From positions 1 to 64,000 of the forward strand of contig JAJPHZ010000022.1 in the NCBI GenBank assembly GCA_021325025.1: 64,000 bases of DNA. The letters run 5' to 3'. Position numbers and translations under genes: made by a program. Positions 22,153 through 39,220 of this stretch are shown here, in pieces. A model generated the notes under the pieces. The model made no database searches. It had not been told where the DNA came from and was given only the letters and a program-made list of their open reading frames with translations. Position 1 is the stretch's first letter, and the number at the start of each line of letters is the position of its first letter. Source of the stretch: Pseudomonadota bacterium. Lineage in GTDB: Bacteria; Desulfobacterota; Binatia; Binatales; Binataceae.

Positions 22153-23514
22153 TTACTTCAGGATGCGTGACAGGCCGCCCGGCGTGGTCATCGTCTGGGC
22201 GTCCTTGAAGTCGGCCGGCACGTCGTCGTCGGTGGTCGGGGCGGCGGCGTAGCTGGCGCTGATGTGCCCGTTTTCCCAGTCGATCTGATGGGCGCCGGCG
22301 TAGCCGTCGAGCATGATGGTCTGCTGGCCGCGGAAATTAATCGGCGCGTATATCTCCCACAATCCCTTCCACAACTTGTTCTCGTTGTCCCAGTTCTCGG
22401 TAAACGGCGGCATCCAGGTTTCCTTGTCAACATAGAAGATGCGATGCGCGAAACAGTAGGGGCCGAGCTGCGGCAGCCATTGCAGGTGCAGCACGTAGAA
22501 CGGACGCACCTGCCATCGCGTGGCCTCCGGCGTGGGCCATCCCGGGAACGAGCCGGGCGTGCTGCCCGTAAAGCCCACGTAGGAGCCGGGCTCGTGAGCC
22601 TTGGCCGGATCCTCGATCGCCATCAGCAACTTCTTCTCGCCCAACAGCGTGACCTTGAAGTTGTTGGGATTCCAGGCGTTGTCGTCGTTGACCGAGTCGG
22701 TGCCCAGAATCGGCGCGCAGCGCGCCGCGCTCGACAGCCGCAGCGAGCGGCGCAGCGAGGGCAGGAAGACGTACAGCTCGGGCAGACGCGTCGGGTCGTC
22801 AGGCTGCATGCTCAATTCGGTGGTGTACTTGGATTGCTCGGGCGCCACCACCATGAAGCGGCTGACATAAAAAAATCCGTTGGCGTAGGGCATGTTGATC
22901 GGCATGCCTGGCTCGCTCAGATGCGACAGCATGTAGAAAGTGTTGTCGGTGTCCTGCGCCGTGCGATTGCCGAACCGGTCTACCAGCAGGCCGTGCGAGG
23001 CCGAGTGCAGGATGAAGGGCCGAAACGGCGCCCAGGCATTGTACAGGATCTGGACCGCCGCGGTTGGACCGTGGGGATTGGGAAACGGCGGCCCGGCCAC
23101 CCATCCCTTCATCACGTAGCCGCCGGTGGGCTGGCGCATCAGCGTGGCCTGGTTGCCGTATTTTTCGGCGTCCTGTTGCCAGCGCCCCGGCATCGGGTAA
23201 TGCACCGTGGGTCCCACCACGATCGCATACTCCGGTCCGCTGCCGAGATGGAGCGCCGAGTTGCCGTTGAAAGCGCCCTGCAGCCAGATCGGCATGAAGT
23301 TCTTGTACCTGGTCCAGTTCTGCGGCGTGATGCGCGTTCCGGGCGCAATGGTTTGCGCTGAGCTGGCGTCGACCAGTTGCCGGTACGCATCCTCATTGAA
23401 GACCAGCGGCGCGGCTTGCGCGCGAGCGCAAGCCAGGCCTATGATGGCCAGTACTACAACCCAGGCCGCGGTACCGGCGGTGGGCCGCCGTCGGTTCCTG
23501 TTCTTTTCCGCCAT
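22153..23514 (-). CDS. DUF1329 domain-containing exported protein
   Basis: The 453-residue precursor has a basic N-terminus and hydrophobic signal peptide ending near ACARAQA. The mature part has DUF1329 landmarks: GTRITPQNW near the N-terminus, YYVSRFMV-like and YVFLPSLRRSLRLSSAARC, the acidic DSVNDDNAWNP, and the C-terminal EIYAPINF region. DUF1329 proteins are related to the LolA/LolB lipoprotein-carrier fold and often accompany hydrocarbon or lipid-type catabolic genes in proteobacteria. The ATG at 23514 has GGGAGAG upstream; the open frame beyond it is not coding. The divergent amidohydrolase shares its roughly 290-base upstream region. Confidence 0.88.
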   Translation of the reverse strand: MAEKNRNRRRPTAGTAAWVVVLAIIGLACARAQAAPLVFNEDAYRQLVDASSAQTIAPGTRITPQNWTRYKNFMPIWLQGAFNGNSALHLGSGPEYAIVVGPTVHYPMPGRWQQDAEKYGNQATLMRQPTGGYVMKGWVAGPPFPNPHGPTAAVQILYNAWAPFRPFILHSASHGLLVDRFGNRTAQDTDNTFYMLSHLSEPGMPINMPYANGFFYVSRFMVVAPEQSKYTTELSMQPDDPTRLPELYVFLPSLRRSLRLSSAARCAPILGTDSVNDDNAWNPNNFKVTLLGEKKLLMAIEDPAKAHEPGSYVGFTGSTPGSFPGWPTPEATRWQVRPFYVLHLQWLPQLGPYCFAHRIFYVDKETWMPPFTENWDNENKLWKGLWEIYAPINFRGQQTIMLDGYAGAHQIDWENGHISASYAAAPTTDDDVPADFKDAQTMTTPGGLSRILK

Positions 23515-23805
23515 AACGCTCTCCCTCATGTGTTTGGTGGCTCGATAGCCGCAAATCGGGGTCGGGGCCCCGGACTGAAAATTTGCGTGCTGGCCATCCA
23601 ATATCTTTCCGGGCTGCAAAACGTCAAGCCGCCGGCATTGGCTCTGCCATTTATTAAACTTAAATCCTGCGGCTGCCGGACTTATTGAAGCTGTCTTGTC
23701 GCCCCAGACTTGACAACCGCAATTCGCGGCCGCGCGGCTTTCTGTCAAAATGTTTGTTCCAAAGATAATAAGTGCTGTCCGTGGAGGCTAAGAAGGGAAC
23801 TCGCG

Positions 23806-31618: not shown

Positions 31619-31788
31619 GCGGTTGGAATTGCAATTATATTGGTTTGCCGCACTCTGGCAAGGCCAGGTCTCCTTCTACCGCGCAAAACGGTGCTCTAAC
31701 GCTGACCGTGCTGCCACCCGATTCCATTCCCGCGTCTGGTGCGGTGGCGGGCGTCGTGCGATTCTCCAATGCTGGTGGGAGGAGCGTC

Positions 31789-32568
31789 ATGGCCGATTAC
31801 GTCAGCGTCAGCGAAGCCCGCAATATGTCAGGACTGCGTGTGGTGTTGCCGCCCGCGCCCGGCCCGTGGGCTGAATCGCTCAAGGGTATCCTGCATGTCA
31901 AGAAGCTGCCCTTCGTGCGCGCCTTGCATGAAGTCGGCACGCCCAGCCTCGAGCTGCGTCTCTGGACCGCGCAGACTTCCTCACCGGTGATGGCGTGGAA
32001 CGACGAACGGCCGCGCACGATTTGGAACGATCAGCTCTACCTGGCCGAGCGCCTGGCGCCGCAGCCGCCGCTGATTCCGCAGGCGATCGAGGAGCGCGCG
32101 CTGATGTTCGGGATGGCCAACGAACTGATGGGCGAAACCGGTTTGGTCTGGAGCCTGCGCGTGCTGGCGATTCATCGCGGACAGACCAACCTCGAGCTGA
32201 GCGAAAAGGCGCGCGCGATGGTCGATTTCCTGGCCGCCAAGTATCAGCACGGGGTAGCCAACGAAGCGCAGCGAGCCTCGCTCCGCGCCGCGGAAATAAT
32301 CACAGCGTTCGCCGCGCGCCTGGCCGAGCAGCAATCAAGGGGCAGTCGTTTTCTGATCGGCAACCAGTTGACGGCACTGGACATCTACTGGGCGGCATCC
32401 GCGGCGATGATCCAGCCGCTGCCGCCGCATTTGTGCGACATGCCGCGCTGGCTGCGCACGACCTACACCGCCAACGACCCGCGTGTGGTCGCCGCGGTGC
32501 GGCCCGCGCTGCTGGAGCATCGCGATTTCATCTACCACGAATTCCTGCAACTGCCGCTGGATTTCTGA
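31789..32568 (+). CDS. Glutathione S-transferase family protein
   Basis: The 259-residue protein starts at ATG 31789 with GGGAGGAG upstream. The N-terminal thioredoxin-like half (LRVVLPPAPGPWAESLKG, ILHVKKLPFVRA, SSPVMAWNDERPRTIWNDQLY) and the helical C-terminal half (LIGNQLTALDIYWAASAAMI, with the conserved Asp of the GST C-terminal helix) fit the GST fold. The usual CPxC/SPFxxK active-site signature is replaced by APGPWAESLKG, so glutathione chemistry is probable but not certain. It follows the convergent tRNA and is convergent with the epoxide hydrolase. Confidence 0.78.
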   Translation: MADYVSVSEARNMSGLRVVLPPAPGPWAESLKGILHVKKLPFVRALHEVGTPSLELRLWTAQTSSPVMAWNDERPRTIWNDQLYLAERLAPQPPLIPQAIEERALMFGMANELMGETGLVWSLRVLAIHRGQTNLELSEKARAMVDFLAAKYQHGVANEAQRASLRAAEIITAFAARLAEQQSRGSRFLIGNQLTALDIYWAASAAMIQPLPPHLCDMPRWLRTTYTANDPRVVAAVRPALLEHRDFIYHEFLQLPLDF

Positions 32569-32580
32569 GCTGCTCGCGCG

Positions 32581-33738
32581 TCAGCGAAAGCGGCGGAAGA
32601 ATTCGCGTATATCCTCGACCAGCAACTGCGGCTCCTCGGCGGGGGCGAAATGCCCGCCGGCGGGAAACTCCGTCCAGCGCTGCAGGTTGAAGTGACGCTC
32701 CATCCAGCGGCGCGGAAAGCGCATGATGTCGGCCGGAAAGACGCCGACCGCGGTGGGCGCCTCGACCTGCGGCTGGCGCTGATGCGCGGGCTGCCAGGGA
32801 TTATGCACCGCCTCGTAGTAGTAGCGCGCCGAGGTGACGAAGCTTTCGGTTACCCAGTAAAGCGTCATCGTGGTGAGCAGGTCGTCCTTGCTGAAGCGCC
32901 GCTCCACCTCGCCGCCGCAATCGCTCCAGGTGCGGCGCTTTTCGAGAATCCAGGCACACAGCCCGGCGGGCGAATCGTTGAGCGCGTACGCCAGCGTCTG
33001 CGGCTTGGTCATCTGAATCGCGGCGTAGCCGCTCTCCGCGGTCGAGAACCGGCGGCCCCGCTCCAACCATTGACGCTCGTAGGGCGCGTAATCCTCGGCC
33101 TTGGGAAAGCTGTTGAAATCCAGCGGCAAAGTCATGGTGAGATAGATTCCGATCAGGCGGTCGGCATACTTATGGCCCAACTGGTTGGTGATGAACGCGC
33201 CCCAATCGCCACCACCCGCCGCGAATTTTTTGTAGCCCAGCACCGACTGCATCAGCTCCACCCACAAATCCGCCGTGCGCCAGTAATTGATTCCGGGCAC
33301 CTTCAACGGCGTGGAGAACCCAAAGCCGGGCAGCGACGGGATGACCACGTCGAAACTGTCGCGCGGGTCGGCGCCGAAGGCCGCGGGATCGGACAGCGGC
33401 CGGATCACCTTCTCGTAGTCCCAGAACGTCCACGGCCATCCATGGCTCAGAATGATCGGAATCGGATTGGGGCCCTTGCCGGGCTCGTGGATGAAATGAA
33501 TCGGGACGCCCTGGATGGTGGCCTTGTAATGCTGGTACTGGTTCATCGCCTCCTGGTGGATTTCCCAGTCATAACCATCCACCCAGTAGGCAATGAGTTC
33601 CTTGAGGTAGTCGAGCTGGGTGCCGTAGGCCCACTGCGCGTTGGCGAAATCGATCGGCCAGCGCGTGCCCGCGGCGCGCCGGCGCAACTCGTCGATGACT
33701 GCAAAGGGAATGTCGACGATAAATCTGGTCTTGCTCAT
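32581..33738 (-). CDS. Epoxide hydrolase family alpha/beta hydrolase
   Basis: The 385-residue protein has the EHN N-terminal domain (PFAVIDELRRRAAGTRWP, WVDGYDWE, MNQYQHYKATIQGVPIHF) and an alpha/beta-hydrolase core. The oxyanion hole is SHGWPWTFWD, the nucleophilic Asp lies in GGGDWGAFI, and a C-terminal FPAGGHFAPAEEP supplies the catalytic His. This matches microsomal/juvenile-hormone-type epoxide hydrolases, which open epoxides to diols. Such a function fits a neighbourhood rich in monooxygenases. The ATG at 33738 is preceded by GAGG. Confidence 0.93.
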   Translation of the reverse strand: MSKTRFIVDIPFAVIDELRRRAAGTRWPIDFANAQWAYGTQLDYLKELIAYWVDGYDWEIHQEAMNQYQHYKATIQGVPIHFIHEPGKGPNPIPIILSHGWPWTFWDYEKVIRPLSDPAAFGADPRDSFDVVIPSLPGFGFSTPLKVPGINYWRTADLWVELMQSVLGYKKFAAGGGDWGAFITNQLGHKYADRLIGIYLTMTLPLDFNSFPKAEDYAPYERQWLERGRRFSTAESGYAAIQMTKPQTLAYALNDSPAGLCAWILEKRRTWSDCGGEVERRFSKDDLLTTMTLYWVTESFVTSARYYYEAVHNPWQPAHQRQPQVEAPTAVGVFPADIMRFPRRWMERHFNLQRWTEFPAGGHFAPAEEPQLLVEDIREFFRRFR

Positions 33739-33915
33739 CGCGGGAAACCTCGACTGCTTGAATTCGCCTGACTCCATTTAACAGAACCCGGCTGCGCCAT
33801 CCACGTATCGCGCGCGGCCCAGCGATTGGGTTTGACTCGGGCGCGGGGTTGATTTGCTATGCTTGCGTCAGGCCGGCGGCAAAGGCAGCGCGCCGTATCA
33901 CAGGAGGACGACGAC

Positions 33916-34686
33916 ATGGAAATTGCCGGAACAGCAGCGGTCATTACCGGCGGCGGGTCGGGAATCGGGCGTGCCACCGCACAGCGTCTGGCGGCGGAAG
34001 GCGCTGCGATCATGATCGTCGACCTCGACGAGACGATGGGCCGTGAGAGCGTCGAATTGATCCGCACCAAGGGCGGCAAAGCGGCGCTGCGCAAGGCCGA
34101 CGTCACCGACGCCGACCAGATGCGCCGGGTGATGGAGGAGACGCTGTCCGAGTTCGGCCGCCTCGACATCCTGCACAACAACGCCGGCATCGCGATCGCC
34201 CATCCGATCTATCCTAAAACCCCGCTGGAGAAATGGCGCCGGGTGCTCGACGTCGACCTCCAGGCCGTGCTGCTCGGATGCCAATTGGGGTACGAGTTCA
34301 TGGCGCCGCGCGGCGGCGGCGTAATCGTCAACACCGCCTCGATGGCGGGCATCTACCCCCATCCCAGCGACCCGGTTTACGCCGCGGCCAAAGGCGGCGT
34401 CGTGCATCTGACGTTTTCGCTCAAGCGATGGGCGCGGCGCGGAGTGCGAGTCAACTGCGTATGTCCGGGCATCGTCCAGACTCCGCTGGTAGAGCGGCTG
34501 AGCAGGGAAGTTGAGGCGGCCGGCGGCAGAACGGCGATGCCGGCCCAGGCGCTGAAGCCCGAGCAGATCGCCGATGTGGTAGTGAACTTCGTGCGCGACG
34601 ACAACTGCGTGGGCCAGATCGTGGAGGTGCGTCCCAGCGGCCCTTACATCGTGGAGCCGCCCCGCGCCCCCAAGCGCCGCCGCTGA
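33916..34686 (+). CDS. SDR family oxidoreductase
   Basis: This 256-residue classical SDR starts at ATG 33916, eight bases after AGGAGG. It shows TGGGSGIGRATAQ (cofactor), DLDETMG following strand 2 (Asp, suggesting NAD preference), NNAGIAIAHP, NTASMAG and YAAAKGG (catalytic Tyr-Lys). It ends with a shorter tail than usual, lacking the standard DGG motif. It probably oxidises an alcohol or diol produced by neighbouring enzymes; the exact substrate is unknown. Confidence 0.92.
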   Translation: MEIAGTAAVITGGGSGIGRATAQRLAAEGAAIMIVDLDETMGRESVELIRTKGGKAALRKADVTDADQMRRVMEETLSEFGRLDILHNNAGIAIAHPIYPKTPLEKWRRVLDVDLQAVLLGCQLGYEFMAPRGGGVIVNTASMAGIYPHPSDPVYAAAKGGVVHLTFSLKRWARRGVRVNCVCPGIVQTPLVERLSREVEAAGGRTAMPAQALKPEQIADVVVNFVRDDNCVGQIVEVRPSGPYIVEPPRAPKRRR

Positions 34687-34694
34687 GGTCGGGT

Positions 34695-35060
34695 TTACTT
34701 CTTTTTCGTCACCTCTTCGAAGATCCGGATCGCCTCGATCGTGGTGGGCATGCCGCCGTACTGCGACATGTGGATGATCACTTCCTTGATTTCCTCGGGC
34801 GTCCAGCCCACGCGCAGGGCGATTCCCAGATGGGCGCGCAATTCCGGGCCGCGCCCCAACACAATCAGCCCCGCCACCGTTGCCAGCGAGCGCAGCTTGG
34901 CGGGCAGGCCCGGCCGCGCCCACACGTCGCCGAAGGTCGTGCCGAACAGCAGGTTGGCGAAGCCCTCGTCGAACTTCTGCATTGACTCATAGGCTCCCCG
35001 GGCTCCCTGTTCGCCGATCAGTTCGGCCAGTTTCTGAATCCCCTTTTCAACATCGGCCAT
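34695..35060 (-). CDS. Carboxymuconolactone decarboxylase family protein
   Basis: The 121-residue all-helical protein matches the CMD/AhpD-like family: FGDVWARPGLPAKLRSLATV near the middle, then ELRAHLGIALRVGWTPEEIK, EVIIHMSQYGGMPTTIEAIR. The thiol pair CxxC of AhpD peroxidase is absent, so the PcaC-type (lactone decarboxylase-like) group fits better. The ATG at 35060 has GGAGGAG upstream. The gene lies between an SDR and the divergently encoded diiron operon. Confidence 0.88.
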   Translation of the reverse strand: MADVEKGIQKLAELIGEQGARGAYESMQKFDEGFANLLFGTTFGDVWARPGLPAKLRSLATVAGLIVLGRGPELRAHLGIALRVGWTPEEIKEVIIHMSQYGGMPTTIEAIRIFEEVTKKK

Positions 35061-35281
35061 CGTTGTTCTCCTCCCCGCAGTCAAAGCACGGCATACAATT
35101 GAGGGGGTTGGCGTTCAAACGCCGCCCGCCGAGCGCTTCACGCGTAATCTGCTGCAATCCGGCGTGCAACTCAAGGTTAATCCGGTGCGCCGCGCTTGAC
35201 GCCGATGGCCTGCGGTTTGTAAAGCTCATGGTCGTTGTGAGAAACTGGCACGCGTAGTAAAGGCTCTGGCAGGAGACGGTC

Positions 35282-36454
35282 ATGTCCATGGCGATCGACA
35301 AAAAACAGTCCGTCGAGCGGCTCAAGGCGCTGCCGCAGGTACAGCGCTGGCGCGAGGGCAACTATGAACCGGGCGCCTGGTTCACCAGCAAGCCGGCGGA
35401 GGAAGGCGGCATCTGGGGCTCTTGGGGCCATCGCTTTCAGCCCAACCGGCGCGGCGTAAGCCTGGTGGAGCTCAATCGCGCCGACCGCCATCCGATACCC
35501 ACTGAAGGACTGGGCTTACTGGCCGACCGGGAGGCGGGTGCTGAACCCGATGCGCCGCGCTACGATTATCCGCTGCGGGAGAAGTACCAGGTCTGGTCCT
35601 ACAACGTAGAGAGCCTGTACGAAGAGGCGATGTCGCGCCAGTGGAGCGCCACGCGCGACATCCCGTGGGACAAGCTGGCGCCGCTGCCCGAGGACCAGGA
35701 ACGCGCGCTATGCCAGTTTGTAAGTTTTTTGCACACGGTGGAGTTCGTGCCCGGCGACACACTGCCGTTTTACATGGCGCGGGTGGATCCGTCGTTTTCA
35801 GAAGTGCGGCTATTCATGTCCTCGCAATGCGCCGACGAAGCGCGCCACATGGAAGTGTTCGGCAAGCGCATGTACGCCAACGGCGGCGGGCCCGGCATGG
35901 AGCCGGGCGCCGAGGCGCTGCTGCTGTTCGACCCGCGCAAATCGGTGCTGCCGCAGGAAATCGCGAAAACCGTCTCCAACGTCAACCCGACCTGGGATTT
36001 TCTGGCCTACTCCTATTTCGTGCAGATGATCGGCGAGGCGGTGGTGCTGGACTTCTTCCGCTTCGGCGAATTCCTGGGCCGCAATCCCTGCGACAAGGAG
36101 ATGTTCCGCCGCATCATGCAGGACGAGGCGCGTCACGTGTCCTTCGGCACCATGCGCATCAAGTATTATCTGGACAACGCGCCGCGCCGCGAGCGCGAAG
36201 AAGCCTCTGAGATGCTGCATTTCCTGGCCTCGGCCTGCGAAGCGAGCGGGACGGGATTCGGCCTGTTGCTCCAGCCCAGCGCGATCGAGCCCTTTGCGCT
36301 GCTGGCCGCCGGCAGCCTCGGCAATCTGGACAAAGGATGGGACGTGGTGCGGGAGTTCTGGGCGACGGCGGTAGAGGAGTATATCAATCGCTGCGAACGC
36401 GCCGGCCTGCCGCGGCGCGGCCGCTGTATGCTGCCGGAAGAGGCGCCGTTCTGA
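35282..36454 (+). CDS. Ferritin-like diiron oxygenase-type protein with complete ligand set
   Basis: The 390-residue helical protein shows the full carboxylate-bridged diiron pattern: Glu154 (TVEFVPGD), Glu186-x-x-His189 (DEARHME), Glu252 (MIGEAVVLDF) and Glu282-x-x-His285 (QDEARHVSFG). This is the E / ExxH / E / ExxH arrangement of the ferritin-like superfamily (ribonucleotide reductase R2, AurF N-oxygenase, acyl-ACP desaturase, bacterial multicomponent monooxygenase alpha chains). Specific family membership is not evident. It is first of a four-gene unit with a degenerate paralogue 15 bases downstream, an SCP2-like protein and an LLM oxidoreductase. O2 activation on a hydrophobic substrate is inferred. 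Confidence 0.85.
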   Translation: MSMAIDKKQSVERLKALPQVQRWREGNYEPGAWFTSKPAEEGGIWGSWGHRFQPNRRGVSLVELNRADRHPIPTEGLGLLADREAGAEPDAPRYDYPLREKYQVWSYNVESLYEEAMSRQWSATRDIPWDKLAPLPEDQERALCQFVSFLHTVEFVPGDTLPFYMARVDPSFSEVRLFMSSQCADEARHMEVFGKRMYANGGGPGMEPGAEALLLFDPRKSVLPQEIAKTVSNVNPTWDFLAYSYFVQMIGEAVVLDFFRFGEFLGRNPCDKEMFRRIMQDEARHVSFGTMRIKYYLDNAPRREREEASEMLHFLASACEASGTGFGLLLQPSAIEPFALLAAGSLGNLDKGWDVVREFWATAVEEYINRCERAGLPRRGRCMLPEEAPF

Positions 36455-36469
36455 GGCCGCGCCCTGGAG

Positions 36470-37711
36470 TTGGCTGAGTTGGCATCGCTCAAACGCCTTC
36501 CGTCCCCATTCACGCTCCCTCCTACGCGTAGGCACGAGCCGCTGCCGCTGCCGCCACCGGAGGAGGTCAAGAAGAAACTTTACGACCATCCCGAGGCGCA
36601 GCGCATCCGCTCGGGCCAGCTCGGCGAATGGTTCACCACGCCGCTGGTCGGCGGCGAGTGGACTGAATGGGGCAAGCAGGCCAGGCCCGATCGAATTGGC
36701 ATGACGTTCATGGCCGTCAACCGGGTCAGCGCCAACCCGGAGCCGACCAATGCGCCGGCGCGCCGCCTGATGCATTCGCGCTACATCAAGACCCATCACG
36801 CGATCCCGCCCGAAATGGAAGAAAAGATCGCGCCCAAGTACGGCACCGCACGTGAGATGGACCGCCGCGATCAGGTCTGGATCGAGCACGCCGCCGAACT
36901 TACCGAAGAGGCGCTGGACCGCCAGATGCGCCCGGCGCGTCAGTTGCGCTGGGAGGAGATGACGCCGCTTGCCGAGGACCTCGAACGCGCCTTCGACCAG
37001 TTCGCGACCTATCTGATCCAGGCGATGTTTCTGTGCTCCGACGCATCTGGTCCCTGGAACGGACTGATTCATTACGGATTTGCGGAAATCAAGAGCTACC
37101 TGGCCTACGAGTTATTCGACTACAACCTGATGTGCGGGCTGTTGCGCAAGCGTGTGATGGCCAACGGGGGCGGGATGGGCGTGCAGGTCGACGGGCTCGG
37201 GGCGGGCATAGTGGAGATTTGCAACGAAGCCTCGCGCGGCTTCGTGGGCGAGGTCGAGCGCGAGTTTCCCTCGGTGGTGTTCGCGATCGACGTGCTGTTC
37301 AACGGTCTGCTGCTGGAGATGGCGCGGCTGGCGGCGGCCGGCGCGCGCAGCCGCTTCGACCGCCATCTGATGACCCAGGTCGTGCAGGACTGCGCGCGGC
37401 ACGTGGCGTTCGGCTGCCGCCGCCTCAGTTTCTATCTGCGCCACTGCCCCGACCGCGAGGAGGCCGCCGTCAAGCTCCATCTGGCCGCCGACCGCCTCGA
37501 GCCGCTCCAAGCCGAGCATCATCTGCTCAACCCCAAGGTGCTGGAGCCGCTGGCCGTCATGCTGGGCGGCGGCGCTGGCGCAATCGCGGGCGGAGTGCGC
37601 ATCCTGCGCGAATTCTGGCCCCAGTTCGCCGCCAGCTACCTGGCGCGGCTTGATTCGATCGGCCTTGGGCGGCGCGACCGATGCCTGCTCCCGGCGCAGC
37701 CGCCGTTTTGA
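36470..37711 (+). CDS. Degenerate paralogue of the diiron protein, likely non-catalytic partner
   Basis: The 413-residue protein aligns along its length with the upstream diiron protein (shared WFTT/S-K-P start region, RKRVMANGGG versus GKRMYANGGG, QDCARHVAFG versus QDEARHVSFG, and RRDRCLLPAQPPF versus RRGRCMLPEEAPF at the end). Five of six metal ligands are lost by position: Glu154 to Met, Glu186 to Tyr, His189 to Met, Glu252 to Asn and Glu282 to Cys; only the last His remains (His311). It looks like a structural subunit, as with the metal-free beta chains of multicomponent monooxygenases or yeast Rnr4. The start is a TTG at 36470 (another at 36479 is possible). Confidence 0.85.
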   Translation: MAELASLKRLPSPFTLPPTRRHEPLPLPPPEEVKKKLYDHPEAQRIRSGQLGEWFTTPLVGGEWTEWGKQARPDRIGMTFMAVNRVSANPEPTNAPARRLMHSRYIKTHHAIPPEMEEKIAPKYGTAREMDRRDQVWIEHAAELTEEALDRQMRPARQLRWEEMTPLAEDLERAFDQFATYLIQAMFLCSDASGPWNGLIHYGFAEIKSYLAYELFDYNLMCGLLRKRVMANGGGMGVQVDGLGAGIVEICNEASRGFVGEVEREFPSVVFAIDVLFNGLLLEMARLAAAGARSRFDRHLMTQVVQDCARHVAFGCRRLSFYLRHCPDREEAAVKLHLAADRLEPLQAEHHLLNPKVLEPLAVMLGGGAGAIAGGVRILREFWPQFAASYLARLDSIGLGRRDRCLLPAQPPF

Positions 37712-37737
37712 GAGTCACAGGTTGGGGCAGTTTTCCG

Positions 37738-38196
37738 ATGGCGAATCAAAAAGTAGAGTTTCCCTCCACGCAGTGGTTTCAGGCACTGGCGGCGCGGATG
37801 AACGAGCAGCGCGCCAAGTACCAGAACTTCGGCTTTGTCACCGCTCGCGCGGTGTTCAGAGTCACCGCCACCGCGGCCGGCAACCGCAACTTCGGCCTGG
37901 TCTTCGACGGCTTCGAATGCCTGGAAGTGCGCGAGCTGACCGACGGTGAGATTGCGCAGTTCGATCCGGACTGGACGATGGAAGGCGACTACGCAACGTG
38001 GAAGGAGATGGTTCAGAACATCAAGGCGCACGGCGAAGCCGACCCCGATCACACCCTAAACCGCCTGTGCCTGCTGGGCCATCCGTTCAGGGTCCACGGC
38101 GAGGACCAGACGCGCGTGGATGTTTTCTACCGCCAGTTGTTTTCCTTCCAGGCTTTCATCGACGAATCCGCCGCCGTCGAAACCAGCTTCGCATAG
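37738..38196 (+). CDS. SCP2 sterol-binding-like domain protein
   Basis: The 152-residue single-domain protein starts at ATG 37738, 27 bases after the diiron-like pair. The predicted order of strands and helices (FRVTATAAGNRNFGLVFDGF, ECLEVRELTD, TWKEMVQNIKAHG, DQTRVDVFYRQLFSFQAFID) resembles the sterol carrier protein 2 fold, which forms a hydrophobic tunnel for acyl chains or sterols. In this context it could present a lipid-like substrate to the diiron pair. The fold assignment rests on weak similarity and is stated with moderate confidence. Confidence 0.6.
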   Translation: MANQKVEFPSTQWFQALAARMNEQRAKYQNFGFVTARAVFRVTATAAGNRNFGLVFDGFECLEVRELTDGEIAQFDPDWTMEGDYATWKEMVQNIKAHGEADPDHTLNRLCLLGHPFRVHGEDQTRVDVFYRQLFSFQAFIDESAAVETSFA

Positions 38197-38242
38197 GAGC
38201 ATCAACGCGGCGCGCCTGCCGCACGCCCTCACAGGAAGGTCA

Positions 38243-39220
38243 ATGGACTTTGGAGTTAATACGTCCGGACTCGAGCTTTCCAAGCTGATTTCTCTCGCCC
38301 AGACCGCCGAGGGTGTCGGTTTTACGACTTTCTATCCGGGCGACCATTTGCTGCTGGCGCAAAGCGGGGTGCATCCCGAGCATGAGCCCGTCCTTGACGC
38401 GATGACCAGCGTGGCCGCTCTGTTCGCCGCCACGCGCAAGCTGCGCATCGGACATTTGGTGCTCAACAACCTCTTCCGCCATCCGATCATCACCGCTCAG
38501 GCGTTGATGACTCTCGATCACATCGGCGGCGGCCGCCTGATCGCGGGAATCGGCACCGGCTGGACCGAGCAGGAATTCACCATGAGCGGCATCCCGTTCC
38601 CCGACATGAAGACGCGCAGCGAGATGCTCGACGAGGCGCTGACCTGCATCCGTTCGTTGTGGACCGACGAGGTGACCAACTTCGAGGGCAAGCATTACCG
38701 GCTGCGTGAGGCAGTGCTGTGGCCCAAGCCGATCCAGAAGCCCCATCCGCCGATCATGGTGGGCGGCGGCGGCAAGCCGATCGTCAGAATCGCGGCCAAA
38801 CACGCCGATATCTCCAACATCACCTGGGAGCTGGGACGCGCGGGCAAGTTCGATACCCGCTACCTGACCGAATTCAACGAGGTCAGGTTCAAGGAGCGCA
38901 TCGATTACATGGCTGAGCAATGCGCACGCAACGGCCGCCCGCGCAACGCGGTCGCGGTCAGCAATCTGATCGGCAGTTGCGTGGTGACCGATTCGGAGGC
39001 GGCCAGTGCCAAGACGGTCGATTCGGTGGCCCGCGCCCTGGGCTTCACCACCGAGCAGGTGCGCCATTGTCCGATGCTGCTGATCGGCACGCCGCAGGCC
39101 TGCATCGAGGAGCTGCGCAAGCGCGTCCGACTGTTCGGCGTAAGCCAGTTCATCGTCACGACCAAGAGCGAGCGCACCGTGCGGGCGTTGGGAGAGAAGG
39201 TCTTCCCGTTCGTCGCCTGA
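38243..39220 (+). CDS. LLM class F420/flavin-dependent oxidoreductase
   Basis: The 325-residue luciferase-like TIM-barrel protein starts at ATG 38243 after AGGAAGG. It has MDFGVNTSGLELSKLISLAQ, FYPGDHLLLAQ, KLRIGHLVLNNLFRHPI, GGGRLIAGIGTGWTEQEF and PPIMVGGGGKPIVRIAAKHAD, typical of the F420-dependent methylenetetrahydromethanopterin-reductase-like branch. Being last in the diiron unit, it might reduce or further oxidise the product, or supply reducing equivalents. Its own hairpin pair follows at 39251-39297. Confidence 0.88.
   Translation: MDFGVNTSGLELSKLISLAQTAEGVGFTTFYPGDHLLLAQSGVHPEHEPVLDAMTSVAALFAATRKLRIGHLVLNNLFRHPIITAQALMTLDHIGGGRLIAGIGTGWTEQEFTMSGIPFPDMKTRSEMLDEALTCIRSLWTDEVTNFEGKHYRLREAVLWPKPIQKPHPPIMVGGGGKPIVRIAAKHADISNITWELGRAGKFDTRYLTEFNEVRFKERIDYMAEQCARNGRPRNAVAVSNLIGSCVVTDSEAASAKTVDSVARALGFTTEQVRHCPMLLIGTPQACIEELRKRVRLFGVSQFIVTTKSERTVRALGEKVFPFVA

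Follow-up and report, generated by a model that had tools for sequence, protein, structure and literature searches.

A candidate dinuclear-metal monooxygenase with a ligand-less paralogue of its catalytic subunit and an SCP2-fold partner

Three consecutive genes of the window, i.e., the whole stretch of 64,000 nucleotides analysed here, appear to encode a multicomponent dinuclear-metal monooxygenase made of a catalytic subunit (A), a structural subunit (B) and a substrate-presenting protein (C), a reading to which we assign a probability of about 0.68. The family of A is uncatalogued, and in its mode of action the system is likened to PaaA/PaaC, the bacterial multicomponent monooxygenases (BMM), AurF and R2lox but is not placed in any of them, since membership of the curated models was not found. 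Within the open-licence PMC papers, no system combining a diiron enzyme with an SCP2 protein was found in the literature. The broader proposal, to which we give even chances, is that these proteins belong to a so far undescribed superfamily of multicomponent oxygenases with a dinuclear metal site and an SCP2-fold subunit that presents the substrate. Its ancestral composition would be A, C and a ferredoxin, a metal-free partner would have evolved repeatedly from the catalytic subunit, and the trio of the window would be a rare third version.

The four genes of a preliminary description of this DNA were found at the coordinates given there (Table 1), and the gaps it reported between them stand at 15 and 46 bases for the first and the last, the second being 26 rather than 27. 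No ferredoxin or reductase gene occurs in the operon of the window.

Table 1. Genes of the A-B-C locus and of its neighbourhood (positions in the window).
Feature	Position	Strand	Remarks
A, catalytic dinuclear-metal (diiron or Mn/Fe) oxygenase subunit (putative), 390 aa	35282..36454	+	ligands E154, E186, H189, E252, E282, H285
B, ligand-less paralogue of A, 413 aa, TTG start	36470..37711	+	R2/R2lox-type helical fold (predicted), purifying selection
C, SCP2-fold protein (predicted), 152 aa	37738..38196	+	dedicated partner of A in several phyla
D, luciferase-like (LLM) flavin/F420 oxidoreductase	38243..39220	+	co-directional; module membership not conserved
Epoxide hydrolase (EHN + alpha/beta hydrolase)	32581..33777	-	syntenic in genus; probable pathway neighbour
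Short-chain dehydrogenase/reductase (SDR)	33859..34686	+	syntenic in genus
Carboxymuconolactone-decarboxylase-family (CMD) protein	34695..35084	-	syntenic in genus
Possible glutathione-S-transferase-like (GST-like) protein	31645..32568	+	weak assignment; present in 1/2 other genus members examined

The ligand set of dinuclear ferritin-like oxygenases, E / ExxH / E / ExxH, is complete in A (6/6 ligands, with E186xxH189 and E282xxH285 exactly as first read), and the residues of B aligned to it are M, Y, M, N, C and H, in the A/B alignment as well as in wider ones. A and B are full-length paralogues (29% identity, 163 bits, E = 1e-50 by blastp). No cut-off of the curated Pfam or NCBIfam models was passed by A, nor any Pfam cut-off by B, and the solved structures nearest to A by profile were a VlmB homologue (2.4e-8) followed by R2lox. 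The helical-bundle fold of A was judged via the structure model of its paralogue B (pLDDT 84.5), whose best structure matches were R2 and R2lox (probability 1.00, E ~5e-4 to 1e-3), so that the possibility of B having another fold than A found no support. The RRxRC-LP-PF tail common to both proteins is real but lost its value as evidence for a pair, and is read as an ancestral trait since related R..RC.LP.. tails were found in many single-copy relatives.

In 57 related genomes, searched with proteins and with profiles, and in a scan of a species-genome collection, whose best 80 loci show presence in taxa and not taxonomic frequencies, the A family was located in the class of the window itself and in Actinomycetota, Chloroflexota, Pseudomonadota and Myxococcota. 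All six ligands (EEHEEH) are present in 121 of 164 homologues from many phyla and not in the remaining 43. The adjacency of the pair, on which the preliminary description depended, held in these relatives: 41 of the 42 ligand-less copies (that of the window excluded) lie directly 3' of a six-ligand copy, or of part of an A gene, in the same orientation, a few of them adjoining such a fragment or a reading frame that overlaps, and no tandem pair with two intact copies was found among the homologues. Within the class, 148 genomes were searched and B of the window type turned up in 4, which makes it rare; in three genomes other than that of the window it is 79-87% identical and lacks the same ligands. 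Three gene orders recur: A-C, in many cases with a 2[4Fe-4S] ferredoxin gene behind it; C-A-B; and A-B, with C frequently next in line. The window has A-B-C. Neither B nor C is universally needed, as at some loci A occurs without B or C nearby, where iterated profiles found no hidden copy of either except for a fragment in L110. Clustering of the open reading frames around the loci returned no recurrent neighbours other than A, B, C and the ferredoxin, beyond promiscuous families and local chromosomal context.

Some single loci deserve mention. A ligand-less B-type gene without an adjacent A was found at L060:3116-4225, in a genome (G046) having A-C on another contig. Genome G001 carries two B copies of the window type, 83% and 91% identical to that of the window, at the ends of contigs C59 and C133 (L154, L155) with A sequence beside each, which are either two loci or mixed strains. 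In the fourth genome (G023) the window-type A extends over two overlapping frames (L156:11118-12289), an apparent frameshift or assembly error, with B and C intact, and at the locus of the nearest relative of the window A (L072:9184-13546) genes for two amidohydrolase-like proteins and one hydantoinase-like protein stand between A and C.

The loss of residues in B is site-specific. When the 52 positions with a conservation of 95% or more among A proteins were examined for retention in 43 B proteins, E252 and E282 were kept in 0/43, E154 in 2% and E186 in 9%, and the ligands were the most depleted of these sites along with E263 (window 36068-36070), which is invariant in A, survives in 7% of B and is a candidate second-shell catalytic residue. 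Kept in every B were G58, R83, W105, W129, E174, R194, R196, D281, R284 and E320. The dN/dS ratio was 0.11-0.15 for window-type B and 0.07 for A; B of the window type is under strong purifying selection.

Maximum-likelihood trees built with the ligand columns removed placed B in three positions, the starred branches forcing 3 changes. With p-values that are indicative, the tree groups having been named after inspection of the alignment, a single common B clade was rejected (p = 0.013), as was the union of the two large B clades with the window B left out (AU p = 0.00046), the latter rejection standing although long branches should draw these clades together. The window B groups with the window A and L072 (support 98/98). 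On these trees B is taken to have arisen independently at least twice; the window B is probably a third origin, a placement of the best tree only, since joining it to either large clade was not rejected (p = 0.22 and 0.26).

That B might be a decaying duplicate, a pseudogene on its way out, agrees with the loss of all metal ligands but one, and is refuted by the dN/dS values, the intact frames in several genomes and the existence of two or more B clades that are old and of separate origin, which leave it a negligible chance. B could otherwise have acquired a new function independent of A, e.g., as a sensor that binds a ligand or as an enzyme that does without the dinuclear metal site, with only the operon linking it to A. 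The ligand replacements vary widely among the B clades and the branches leading to them are long, as expected of such a protein, but the origins of B recur in the same slot behind A, and ten residues are common to every B and A protein. Both facts fit a shared structural role better, so that we consider this explanation quite improbable.

As for A, an alternative assignment would make it an N-oxygenase of the AurF/VlmB type or an oxidase of the R2lox type instead of a monooxygenase acting on C-H or C=C bonds. Its closest solved relatives by profile point that way, and the AurF Pfam model (PF11583) scores A just under its cut-off (27.4 vs. 29.6 bits) and matches 8 of 43 relatives, with a best E of 2.3e-6. 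The ligand set of AurF includes an extra His (H223xxxE227xxH230). The position in question, four residues before the last Glu (E282), is I278 in A and non-His in the aligned relatives, while the R2lox models of NCBIfam lie far below cut-off for A (37 vs. 194 bits for NF006200, and 20.6 vs. 286 and 15.1 vs. 346 for the others), which renders this assignment unlikely. The preliminary guess of an SCP2 protein for the third gene, C, was backed by structure prediction, the model of C (pLDDT 96.5) having only SCP2 structures as best Foldseek matches (E = 5.1e-6; the three highest-ranking at TM-scores of 0.61-0.74). At the sequence level C passed no Pfam cut-off, none of 40 C members matched the Pfam SCP2 model at E ≤ 0.1, and SCP2 chains reached only E of about 0.01 with a profile. 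All 49 copies of C among the 57 relatives are neighbours of A, and the A-C linkage spans Actinomycetota, Chloroflexota, Pseudomonadota and Myxococcota. Tandem C paralogues, with a divergent second copy, were observed behind A-B in two Pseudomonadota loci (L116:10146-11022 and L123:10145-11020). Known members of the SCP2 fold bind lipids, which speaks for a carrier and against the doubtful alternative that C is an effector or coupling protein similar to MmoB. Such an alternative, with the SCP2 fold serving only for docking close to the A/B cleft, would draw on the small size of C, on its tight linkage to A and on the example of PaaB, which bridges PaaA and PaaC (PMC4498308).

D was correctly recognised as an LLM protein (PF00296 passed with 161 bits); it is below all NCBIfam cut-offs among the models listed, and FMN and F420 types are not distinguished. 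The notion of a four-component system including it did not survive, as D is adjacent in 2 of the 4 loci of the window type and unlinked elsewhere: of the proposed gene quartet A-B-C is conserved across genomes and D is not, the LLM protein was rejected as a core component, and with A(-B)-C as the conserved unit D is accessory. A feature overlooked by the preliminary description is the 2[4Fe-4S] ferredoxin gene directly after C in many B-less relatives. The ferredoxin is present in 0/39 B loci vs. 34/68 B-less loci; mutual exclusion of B and ferredoxin is not claimed, too few independent pairs being left once relatedness is allowed for. These ferredoxin genes lie downstream of C in L073-L137 (e.g., L114:9780-10274 and L086:9439-9753), some with an extra zinc-ribbon-like tail.

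Likewise overlooked were three genes upstream of A that encode the epoxide hydrolase, the SDR and the CMD protein and are syntenic in two other members of the genus (81-87% identity), where D and the possible GST-like gene are each present in one of the two. The fourth genome shares A-B-C alone, and the synteny of the three upstream genes is confined to the genus of the window. No Pfam match was obtained for the GST-like protein, with GST chains appearing at E = 0.53 only. Pathway clusters for isoprene have a GST and a dehydrogenase after the monooxygenase (PMC12917321). Given the epoxide hydrolase and the SDR syntenic in the genus, the product of the window locus might be an epoxide or an alcohol, the former being suggested by analogy. 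A DUF1329 outer-membrane-type protein is encoded at window positions 22156-23748, and its homologues lie in the vicinity of A-B-C in other members of the genus.

From ligand loss, arrangement and selection we infer that A and B form a heteromer. In the monooxygenase that we favour, A, through the ligand set observed, would bind the metal pair and activate O2, and B, retaining the fold of A without its metal site, would replace one protomer of an ancestral A homodimer. The resulting hydroxylase would be A-B or A2B2, with B structural and perhaps docking partners. C, an SCP2 fold by prediction that accompanies almost all A genes of the core family, would bind a hydrophobic substrate of acyl or terpenoid type and present it to A, and electrons would come from a 2[4Fe-4S] ferredoxin, presumably encoded elsewhere in the genome of the window.

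Dead oxygenase subunits are familiar from a handful of old systems. The present family appears to display the state before (A with C, often with ferredoxin) and after (A with B) in at least two separate transitions, and the gain of a metal-free partner by an oxygenase can now be tested by comparison. An uncatalogued oxygenase family is also added to several, mostly uncultured lineages, in which it would degrade or tailor hydrophobic compounds.

Partnership of a dead paralogue with a metal-bearing subunit is found in yeast, where Rnr4 pairs with the R2 subunit Rnr2; that system is nevertheless a eukaryotic ribonucleotide reductase and has no SCP2 partner. The BMM (MmoX/MmoY, IsoA/IsoE) share with the present system a dead beta subunit, a small accessory protein and a ferredoxin or reductase supply, but here the accessory protein has a predicted SCP2 fold and many A relatives are without a beta-like subunit; the Phenol_Hydrox Pfam model of BMM/SDIMO matched neither A nor B (E ≤ 1) nor any of 43 relatives (E ≤ 0.01). 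R2lox is alike in fold and among the nearest sequence relatives, binds a fatty acid, and one member, GkR2loxI, has been reported as an alkane monooxygenase (PMC6399176, PMC10867098). A differs from it in staying below the model cut-offs, and its family in having a long N-terminal extension and the partners B and C; the alignment of A with R2lox around the residues of the Tyr-Val ether cross-link, which along with a Mn/Fe cofactor characterises R2lox, is uncertain by one residue. The PaaA_PaaC Pfam model matched neither A nor B, nor any of 43 relatives. PaaA and PaaC have one fold at only 17% identity and form a catalytic/structural heterodimer in which PaaC is structural (PMC4498308). A and B are 29% identical, the small partner is of SCP2 fold by prediction and a PaaE-type reductase is lacking here, but the epoxidase (with PaaB and PaaE) likewise joins a catalytic dinuclear-metal subunit to a structural paralogue of the same fold and a small partner, and yields an epoxide. 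By analogy, PaaA/PaaC is the closest working model for A-B.
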